Positions 23,285 through 51,329 of a stretch of 64,000 nt of DNA are shown one piece after another. The notes below the pieces were generated by a model. The model saw only the letters and a program-made list of their open reading frames with translations, searched no databases and had not been told where the DNA came from. The stretch's first letter is position 1. The number at the start of each line of letters is the position of its first letter. A program made the translations under genes and the position numbers. The stretch is from an uncultured Gammaproteobacteria bacterium (GTDB lineage Bacteria; Pseudomonadota; Gammaproteobacteria; Nitrosococcales; Methylophagaceae): the NCBI GenBank assembly GCA_937900515.1, contig CALCCU010000112.1, forward strand, positions 62,001-126,000, given 5' to 3'.

Positions 23285-24022
23285 ATGACCACCCAAACAC
23301 CATTATTCGAACGTAGCCACATACTTATCGGTGATGAGGGGGTTGAGCGATTACAAAAAGCGCATGTCCTGATCGCGGGGATGGGTGGAGTAGGATCATT
23401 TACTTCAGAAGCCTTAGCTAGAATGGGTGTTGGGAAGCTGACCTTAATTGATCATGATGTCGTATCTGGCTCAAATATAAACCGTCAATTAGTCGCTTTA
23501 AATTCGACTAATGGCCAAGCTAAAGCTGATGTAATGGCCCAACGTATTTTTGATATTAATCCTGAATGCCAAGTAACCGTACTTAAAGAATTCATAACGC
23601 CTGAAAGTGTGATTGACCTGTTAACATCTGAATATGATGCAGTGGTTGATGCAATCGATAGCATGAGTAGTAAAGCCTCTCTATTAGAAACTGCATGGAA
23701 AAATAAAATAGCTATTTTTTCAAGTATGGGTGCAGGAGGTAAACTCGATCCGACTCAAATACGAACGGGTGATTTAATGGATACTTCAATGTGTAAACTT
23801 GCCAAACAACTACGCCGTCATGTACGTCGACGAGGTGTAGGAAAAGGTATACAAACGGTTTATTCATTAGAGGCACCAATGCCAGCTTTACCACCTGAAC
23901 CTGTTGCTCATGGACGCCCTCGCGCCGTAAACGGCACCGTAAGCTACTTACCTTCCATTTTTGGTTTAACCATCGCTGGCATGGTTACTAACCATATCAT
24001 TGGTGAAGCTCGTCGTGTCTGA
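23285..24022 (+). CDS. tcdA: tRNA threonylcarbamoyladenosine dehydratase (ThiF/E1-like)
   Basis: VLIAGMGGVGSFTSEALARMGVGKLTLIDHDVVSGSNINRQ and DAVVDAIDSMSSKASL. Confidence 0.92.
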   Translation: MTTQTPLFERSHILIGDEGVERLQKAHVLIAGMGGVGSFTSEALARMGVGKLTLIDHDVVSGSNINRQLVALNSTNGQAKADVMAQRIFDINPECQVTVLKEFITPESVIDLLTSEYDAVVDAIDSMSSKASLLETAWKNKIAIFSSMGAGGKLDPTQIRTGDLMDTSMCKLAKQLRRHVRRRGVGKGIQTVYSLEAPMPALPPEPVAHGRPRAVNGTVSYLPSIFGLTIAGMVTNHIIGEARRV

Positions 24023-24518
24023 TCCAACTAATGTTATAAATTGCACAACTGAACGACAACAACAACTTGCAAAACTACTCAAACCTTATGGTATCGAAGT
24101 AGAAACTGTTCCTGATGGTGAAGCTATCCCAGGTAGTTTTTTTGGAGAACGAGAAGCAGGGATAATAGGTGCTAAATTATTATTGCGTCATGACACTCCT
24201 GTACACTCTGCCTTACATGAAGCAGGACACTACATCTGCATGGACCCAAAGCGTCGAGCCAAATTAGATACCGATGCAGAAGGTGACTATGATGAAGAAA
24301 ACGGTGTCTGCTATTTACAAATTTTATTAGCTGACCATTTACCTGATTTTGGTCGTCAACGAATGATGGTTGATATGGATCGTTGGGGTTATACCTTTCG
24401 CTTAGGCTCAGCCAAAGCTTGGTTTGACAATGATGCAGAGGATGCCCATCAGTGGTTACTCACTCATAATATTATCGATAAAAATGAACAGCCAACTTGG
24501 ATTTTTAGACAGTCATAA
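24000..24518 (+). CDS. Uncharacterised HEAGH-motif protein
   Basis: ALHEAGHYICMDPKRRAKLDTDAEGDYDEENGVCYLQ. Start uncertain (TTG 24000, GTG 24003 or GTG 24015); overlaps the tcdA 3' end. Confidence 0.75.
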   Translation: MVKLVVSDPTNVINCTTERQQQLAKLLKPYGIEVETVPDGEAIPGSFFGEREAGIIGAKLLLRHDTPVHSALHEAGHYICMDPKRRAKLDTDAEGDYDEENGVCYLQILLADHLPDFGRQRMMVDMDRWGYTFRLGSAKAWFDNDAEDAHQWLLTHNIIDKNEQPTWIFRQS

Positions 24519-24553
24519 AAAAATGAAATTAATTCTAATTTTCTATTGACAAT

Positions 24554-24574
24554 AAAAAGTTATTAACTTTTTTA
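24554..24574. terminator. Weak AT-rich terminator-like hairpin
   Basis: AAAAAGTT-ATT-AACTTTTT downstream of the 24000-24518 gene. Confidence 0.35.
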
Positions 24575-24667
24575 AGTTAACAATAGGTAATGAGTAAAAT
24601 GTCCCTTTCTAAGTCTTTGATATTTACCAGTCCAATTTAAGTTATTGATAAATATACATTTTAACTT

Positions 24668-24790
24668 ATTGGTTAATTTTTAACCAATTATAAATTGCAT
24701 GTTATAGAAGAATGACTTAGCGATTTTCACATATGTTAGTAACAGAGTTATCCACAGATAATGTGCGTAAGTTTATAAGTTACTGAAAGC
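24668..24790. repeat. Copy A of a ~123 bp intergenic direct repeat with DnaA-box-like site
   Basis: Aligns without gaps to 25126-25248 (offset 458). Shared core GAAGAATGACTTAGCGATTTTC...ACAGAGTTATCCACAGAT.ATGTG. Starts with perfect IR ATTGGTTAA-TTT-TTAACCAAT. Confidence 0.85.
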
Positions 24791-25125
24791 ACGTTCTAGC
24801 CCTTAAAATTCAATCTGTTACCTTCCTTTCTTCTAAAGTACTCATCTCAGCATAATGGTAGCTATACTCCAAAAAGCTGAATTTAGTGTATTTCTAGACA
24901 AAACTTTTCTAACTGTAAATTAGACCAAAATAATTTGTTCAACACTGAAAAACTGAATGAGTAAAAACACAGAAATAATTTTGAAATAAATGTAAATATG
25001 ACTTGACACTCGTTAAGTTATTCACTTTTTAAAGTGTTCTTATTAAAGCATCATAAGAAGTGAAGCTAAGTTATTGATTCTGGCTATTCGCAATCTAACT
25101 CACTGAATCATATAGCTTTAAAAAG

Positions 25126-25248
25126 AATGGTTAAATTTCAACCAATCTAAAACCAATTGTTACAGAAGAATGACTTAGCGATTTTCCCAGTCCTTATTCA
25201 CAGAGTTATCCACAGATTATGTGAGTAACTCTGTAAGTCCTTGAAAGC
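25126..25248. repeat. Copy B of the ~123 bp intergenic direct repeat
   Basis: Same spacing as copy A. Contains TTATTCACA (25194-25202), TTATCCACA (25206-25214) and imperfect palindrome ACAGAGTTATCCACA-GATTA-TGTGAGTAACTCTGT. Confidence 0.85.
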
Positions 25249-25268
25249 CTATTTATCAGGGCATTAAA

Positions 25269-50432: not shown

Positions 50433-51066
50433 TATTTGAGGCCACCACATCGTCAAGTTTGATTTGAAGGATCTGCTGGCGAGGTTCGCCTTGTTTGATA
50501 GTGAACAATGCCTGCTGATAAGCTGTTCTTGCCTGATCCGGTTTTGCTTGTTCAATGTAAATATCACCTTTTAGCTCTGACCACAAAGATGAAAATGCAT
50601 CTGATGATGCTTTATCAGCTAAGAGTAAAGCCTCATCGAATTTACTGTCTAAAAACAATACTTGCGCTAATCTTAGTTGAGCAAGTTCTTTATGAGCAGA
50701 TAAATCAGCATTAGAAACAACCCAGTTTAGATATGTCTGTGCCGCAGCATTATCATTATTTTTAACAGCATTGGATGCCATATCAAATGCTGAAAATATA
50801 GAATAAGGGCTTGTTGAAAAATCAGTAAACAAATTATCTGAGGCTGCTGCTGCAGTAATACTATCCCCATTAGCCAAGGCTCTTGATACTTGTTGATATG
50901 CATGTGAAGCTTTCAGTGCTTGTGTACTTTTATAATCGACCCAGTAGCGGCCACCAAAGACAGCTAACGCAGTAGCCACACAAGCAATGATGACTGAACG
51001 TCCATTATCACGCCACCACTGTTTAATCTCTTCGCCTTTTTCATCATCCGATGCATAAATATCCAT
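50425..51066 (-). CDS. yfgM: YfgM/ancillary SecYEG translocon subunit-like TPR protein
   Basis: MDIYASDDEKGEEIKQWWRDNGRSVIIACVATALAVFGGRYW; upstream of bamB. Confidence 0.88.
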   Translation of the reverse strand: MDIYASDDEKGEEIKQWWRDNGRSVIIACVATALAVFGGRYWVDYKSTQALKASHAYQQVSRALANGDSITAAAASDNLFTDFSTSPYSIFSAFDMASNAVKNNDNAAAQTYLNWVVSNADLSAHKELAQLRLAQVLFLDSKFDEALLLADKASSDAFSSLWSELKGDIYIEQAKPDQARTAYQQALFTIKQGEPRQQILQIKLDDVVASNNG

Positions 51067-51269
51067 CTTCTGTCATTCCTCAAATATTCGACTGAACAAA
51101 AGACTAATTATACGTTGATCTGCCCAAAAATGTGGATATGTCGTTGCAAATGAATACAGCGCACCATTTCAAACCAGAAACACCTTAAGCGCACCTTTTT
51201 AGAGCAAAACAACTTAATCATCATGCTGATAGACCTAATAAGTTATTGTTTTATATATAAACACCATTA

Positions 51270-51285
51270 TGGTGCGACAATTGCA
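51270..51285 (+). promoter_or_regulatory. Candidate sigma54 (-24/-12) promoter upstream of amt
   Basis: TGGTGC-GACAA-TTGCA; GG (51271-72) and GC (51283-84) with the canonical 10 nt between them; 45 bp before the GTG start. Confidence 0.65.
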
Positions 51286-51329
51286 CTAAATTAAGGCTAA
51301 TTAATTCTAACTAATAAGGATAGTACATC

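Follow-up and report, generated by a model that had tools for sequence, protein, structure and literature searches.

A duplicated element beside a gloA-like gene

The window, that is, the whole 64-kb stretch of DNA that was analyzed (C112:62001-126000), belongs to a 2.75-Mb draft genome of 289 contigs. Within it, positions 24519-25268 form an ORF-free gap between a 172-amino-acid (aa) ORF (24000-24518) and a converging gene of the glyoxalase family (gloA-like; Pfam PF00903; 25269-25658, minus strand), which adjoins the element described below across the family and is its conserved neighbor. The 172-aa ORF follows and overlaps a ThiF-family gene; it contains a metallopeptidase-like HEAGH motif and had no match in Pfam. 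The gap has a GC content of 28%, versus 40% for the window, and no ORF was called in it, which bears out its preliminary description as AT rich and noncoding. It had also been called the largest noncoding stretch of the window. The ORF map has one nominally longer gap (50568-51329, 762 bp), but the larger part of that gap looks coding by eye, so that 24519-25268 is probably the largest true intergenic gap.

The segments 24668-24790 and 25126-25248 align without indels at an offset of 458 bp, with 96 of 123 positions identical. When the gap was shuffled 200 times (dinucleotide type), no ungapped 123-bp self-match exceeded 64, and the duplication that had been noted earlier is confirmed. However, the repeat reaches farther upstream than these 123 bp, to IHF consensus sites at 24610-24650 and 25067-25079. 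Each copy measures ∼175 bp and comprises one or more upstream IHF consensus sites, a Fis-consensus dyad, a conserved block, and three DnaA boxes. The consensus sequences scanned were TAAnnnnTTGATW for IHF and GnnYAnnnnnTRnnC for Fis, both from PMC4245941. Counted from the first base of box III, alignment of the family elements and the consensus scan gave two IHF sites (near −127 and −98), a Fis site (−65), the block GTTACAGAATAATGACTTAGCGATTTTC (from about −35 to −8), and then box III itself (0), box II (+12), and an inverted box I (+26). A further IHF-like site lies at +40; 24 of the 32 family elements have it with no more than one mismatch.

In copy A, two predicted IHF sites match the consensus exactly on the plus strand: site 1 (TAAGTCTTTGATA, 24610-24622, offset −126), whose offset recurs across the family, and site 2 (TAAGTTATTGATA, 24638-24650, offset −98). 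The Fis dyad GGTTAATTTTTAACC (24671-24685, offset −65) is also an exact match and coincides with an offset peak both in the family and in the wider set of loci considered below. The conserved block GTTATAGAAGAATGACTTAGCGATTTTC (24701-24728, plus strand) precedes a degenerate box III (TTAGTAACA, 24736-24744, plus strand), a perfect box II (TTATCCACA, 24748-24756, plus strand), and box I (TTACGCACA on the minus strand, 24762-24770), which faces box II head to head. The parts of copy B are one upstream IHF site that matches exactly (TAAGTTATTGATT, 25067-25079, plus strand, offset −127), a Fis-like dyad with one mismatch (GGTTAAATTTCAACC, 25129-25143, offset −65), the conserved block GTTACAGAAGAATGACTTAGCGATTTTC (25159-25186, plus strand), box III (TTATTCACA, 25194-25202, plus strand), box II (TTATCCACA, 25206-25214, plus strand), and box I (TTACTCACA on the minus strand, 25220-25228). 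A possible downstream IHF site with one mismatch (TAAGTCCTTGAAA, 25234-25246, plus strand) lies at +40.

The preliminary description had placed the boxes at 24748, 25194, and 25206 correctly. It had also reported an imperfect palindrome in copy B; the palindrome is present, and we reinterpret it as the result of a third, inverted DnaA-box-like site, which has a counterpart in copy A. Box II, which served as the anchor for the family elements, is TTATCCACA and nearly invariant among them. In boxes III and I, variation is concentrated at the two inner positions where a DnaA box allows it, and two of the three boxes in each copy are weak or variable. The block located between the Fis site and the core is conserved across the family and ends in ACTTAGCGATTTTC; many elements of other genera have a CTTAGC motif nearby.

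Core geometry and comparison with E. coli loci

The three boxes are spaced 9-3-9-5-9, with 3 bp between boxes III and II and 5 bp between box II and the inverted box I. Among 208 spacing combinations tried in the 64-kb window, only the 3/5 geometry gave two hits with at most two mismatches; the core of copy B fits the geometry pattern without any mismatch. We compared this arrangement with four E. coli loci, namely, the DARS1, DARS2, oriC, and datA regions. DARS2, or DnaA-reactivating sequence 2, is a site at which the replication initiator DnaA is recharged. The same geometry was found in DARS1 (TAATACACA-TGG-TTATCCACA-GGAAT-AGTGGATAA) and in DARS2 (TTCTTCACA-ACT-CTATCCACA-GAAAA-GGTGAATAA), whereas the geometry scan did not find it in the oriC or datA regions. 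The core common to DARS1 and DARS2 is described as three equally spaced boxes with box I opposite to boxes II and III (PMC5742627). From this definition and the loci themselves, we read the E. coli stretches named above as the published core boxes. Both copies in the gap have the three boxes with the spacing of DARS1 and DARS2 and with box I reversed.

DARS1 shares the core geometry but works without IHF or Fis (PMC5742627), and our consensus scan found no IHF consensus near it. In contrast, DARS2 requires both proteins (PMC4245941). The element in the window resembles DARS2 in the spacing and orientation of its core, in having IHF and Fis sites on the box III side, here predicted from consensus matches at fixed offsets, and in being intergenic. 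The order of these parts differs, being core-Fis-IHF here and core-IHF-Fis in E. coli, where both IHF sites are closer to the core than the essential Fis sites. The IHF sites are located at −98 and −127 here but are adjacent in E. coli, at −87/−71. With Fis at −65 and IHF at −98/−127, the element departs from the core-IBS-FBS arrangement, with IBS1 and IBS2 3 bp apart, that distinguishes the DARS2 subtype. It is also smaller (∼175 bp versus 455 bp) and duplicated in tandem. Its flanking genes, gloA and either ORF172 or ttcA, match those of neither E. coli DARS1 nor DARS2, the latter occupying the rppH-mutH gap. The activity of E. coli DARS2 falls when an IHF site is shifted by 5 to 10 bp. Since the order of Fis and IHF is reversed here, the bend geometry must differ from that of E. 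coli, and the mechanism may differ in detail.

Copies and duplication history

A DNA search of the genome revealed one more copy, on contig C114; it is flanked by clpA and cobO, two genes named from their translations. The genome contains exactly three full three-box cores at up to three mismatches, and a reversed-pattern control gave none. The copy count proposed in the preliminary description thus argues against a generic many-copy repeat. Within the family, gloA adjoins the main locus, with either ttcA or, as in the window, tcdA-ORF172 on the other side, and the second locus lies between clpA and cobO. These loci are syntenic in at least two genera.

A pair of copies within 1 kb was present in seven of the sampled genomes (G000, G001, G002, G004, G006, G007, and G010). 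In G001, G006, and G007, far copies were 88 to 98% identical to each other and near copies 76 to 92%, whereas far and near copies were only 66 to 70% identical. By these identities, the far and near copies are clearly orthologous across the three genomes, implying that the duplication predates these species and that both copies were kept. The tandem copies of the present genome showed identities of 69 to 74% with those of G002.

Other arrangements were also encountered. A locus of G010 (L036) carries a tandem pair of elements of the clpA-cobO class separated by fragments of a second cobO, which suggests that the duplication took in part of cobO. G032, from a different genus of the family, has nine core sites in its genome; six of these DARS-core elements fall within ∼17 kb (L042, G032:C16:10000-29500) and lack upstream IHF sites. 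A third class of core sites has a strong box in position III, for example, TTATCCACA-TGC-TTCTCCACA, and was observed at G034:C3:1519609-1520010, G030:C2:159883, G035:C5:213907, G006:C8:21648, and G007:C26:134435; in G034 it forms a triple array with ∼184-bp spacing.

Chromosomal position and a predicted oriC

The GC-skew analysis proposed in the preliminary description was carried out in G034, a near-complete relative in three contigs. The skew switches at about C3:363-368 kb, coinciding with a cluster of perfect TTATCCACA boxes between priA and folA (L193:9793-9836, G034:C3 ∼362.8 kb). In the genome under study, perfect TTATCCACA boxes are likewise clustered next to priA (L004:561-637, contig C14). 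No strict DnaA box was found just 5′ of dnaA. We had considered the priA-side boxes as a divergent copy of the element, but their spacing differs, and the matching cluster at the skew switch of the relative makes them a likely oriC. We therefore predict that the priA-folA cluster is the oriC of Methylophagaceae and that it is not located beside dnaA. This is a prediction, as the arms of the G034 draft look unequal and left-arm distances depend on the placement of the 825-kb contig C1. With the predicted oriC at ∼363 kb, the G034 element between clpA and cobO (C3:874 kb) and that beside gloA (C3:2081 kb) lie on opposite replichores, away from the predicted origin; a dif-like sequence is found at C3:1191 kb. 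The elements are intergenic and situated between the predicted oriC and the terminus in this relative, the genome under study being too fragmented for such an assignment.

Distribution among Gammaproteobacteria

An exact scan of species genomes for CACAGAGTTATCCACAGNNNNTGTG retrieved at least 117 stretches, nearly all from Gammaproteobacteria or Betaproteobacteria according to their titles. A pattern with free spacing matched 153 of 274 Gammaproteobacteria genomes, versus 1 for the reversed control. Although 208 geometries were allowed, 132 of the 150 matches listed had spacings of 3 and 5. In a phylum-wide draw, the strict pattern was present in 66 of 299 genomes: the matches came from Gammaproteobacteria and from families f192, f196, and f200, with single genomes of f202, f213, and f216, and most other families were without it. 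These counts are lower bounds, because the two sites of E. coli itself would fail the strict pattern.

We then looked at 109 loci outside Methylophagaceae that had been picked on their DnaA boxes alone. With one mismatch allowed, IHF matches peaked at −98 (25 loci) and −99 (21 loci), against a mean of 0.3 per offset and a shuffle maximum of 2; these are the offsets around IHF site 2 of copy A. Exact Fis matches peaked at −66 (30 loci; shuffle maximum, 3). Such peaks provide independent support for a three-protein element with a shared core-Fis-IHF layout. Outside the family, the commonest downstream gene across the class was priA, named by reading its sequence; at 22 of the ∼117 class-wide loci (L059-L175), the gene cluster adjoining the element included a priA-family ORF, usually immediately downstream. 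Other class-wide loci lie near hemW/rdgB-like or rpmE genes.

Interpretation and alternatives

We consider it very probable that the gap contains two tandem DARS2-like sites. The possibility of a DARS-like locus had already been raised in the preliminary description, and it is now strongly supported by the box geometry, the IHF and Fis sites, and the conservation. On sequence grounds, its core would place the element among the DARS sites, and its regulatory layout, compactness, and tandem arrangement would make it a variant of them. Against a full match to DARS2, box III of copy A is degenerate, and copy B has a single upstream IHF match and a mismatch in its Fis dyad.

The anatomy, geometry, conservation, synteny, partner-protein genes, and position in the relative are read from sequence here, while binding, ADP release, and timing are taken from analogy with E. 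coli (PMC4245941, PMC5742627, and PMC8682772). The genome encodes DnaA and a second, short DnaA-family protein of the size of Hda (Hda-like), a Fis-like protein with 52% identity to E. coli Fis, and IHF-alpha, which scored above its cutoff. By this analogy, ADP-DnaA would bind boxes III, II, and I, and contact between the molecules bound head to head at boxes II and I would lead them to release ADP. The freed apo-DnaA would reload ATP, raising the level of ATP-DnaA before initiation at oriC. IHF bending at −126/−98 together with Fis at −65 would activate the site, placing it under cell cycle and growth phase control, and the dose would be set by the two copies here plus the one at clpA-cobO.

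Clusters of good DnaA boxes bind DnaA, titration has been argued for E. coli (PMC12371093), and G032 has its nine core sites, so the boxes could merely store DnaA and delay initiation without nucleotide exchange. Yet a titration sink, which had also been proposed in the preliminary description, could do without a fixed 3/5 spacing that includes an inverted box and without IHF and Fis sites at set offsets, all of which it leaves unexplained, and two boxes out of three per copy are weak or variable; we regard such a sink as unlikely. A datA-like site, promoting hydrolysis of DnaA-bound ATP (DDAH), would likewise be noncoding, combine DnaA boxes with IHF sites, and govern the nucleotide state of DnaA. 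However, its box arrangement differs: the IHF site of datA lies between essential boxes (PMC5742627), whereas here the boxes are contiguous and the main IHF sites are outside. Given also that the E. coli datA region lacks the 3/5 geometry, this reading is highly improbable.

We give even less weight to a cis-regulatory site or RNA element serving the neighboring genes, i.e., an operator for DnaA, IHF, and Fis or a transcript hairpin. The element is intergenic, contains an inverted repeat, and elsewhere in the class often lies just upstream of priA, but in the window it sits between the 3′ ends of converging genes, which is no ordinary promoter region. A search of Rfam with the element returned zero matches, and a hairpin was rejected since pairing in the stem is freely lost, with hardly any compensatory changes, mostly at sites where a DnaA box allows variation. 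The least credible of these alternatives is that the element is the chromosomal origin itself or a second origin. It shares perfect TTATCCACA boxes and AT-rich intergenic DNA with the predicted Methylophagaceae oriC, and has IHF sites as well; however, that oriC has tandem boxes 7 bp apart and no DARS core and is located at the GC-skew switch. The gap element occurs at three sites per genome, and the switch in G034 falls at the priA-folA cluster, which has its counterpart beside priA in the genome under study. Finally, a dispersed intergenic repeat or MITE remnant, another earlier suggestion, is not supported, given the three copies at syntenic loci and the lack of plasmid or phage matches to the element; MITE or REP sequences would be present as many scattered, mobile, nonsyntenic copies.

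In the literature surveyed, which did not extend to the original 2009 paper, DARS2 homologues were described only for E. coli, Shigella, Erwinia, Yersinia, Photorhabdus, Rahnella, Vibrio, and Shewanella, and we found no paper on replication control in Methylophaga. The two DARS2-like sites proposed here have their core in common with over half of the 274 sampled Gammaproteobacteria, with a common IHF/Fis layout unlike that of E. coli. A wider proposal, which we hold to be slightly less likely than not, is that the compact core-Fis-IHF arrangement is a general DnaA-recharging element of Gammaproteobacteria, that E. coli DARS2 is a rearranged descendant of it, and that tandem duplication, as in the window, and the larger arrays of relatives tune its dose. 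A by-product of the analysis is the prediction of a Methylophagaceae oriC that does not adjoin dnaA. The spread of the core and its layout through the sampled genomes would make DnaA recharging at DARS sites a class-wide mode of replication control, with a parts list that could be read by comparison and predictions testable in many genera.
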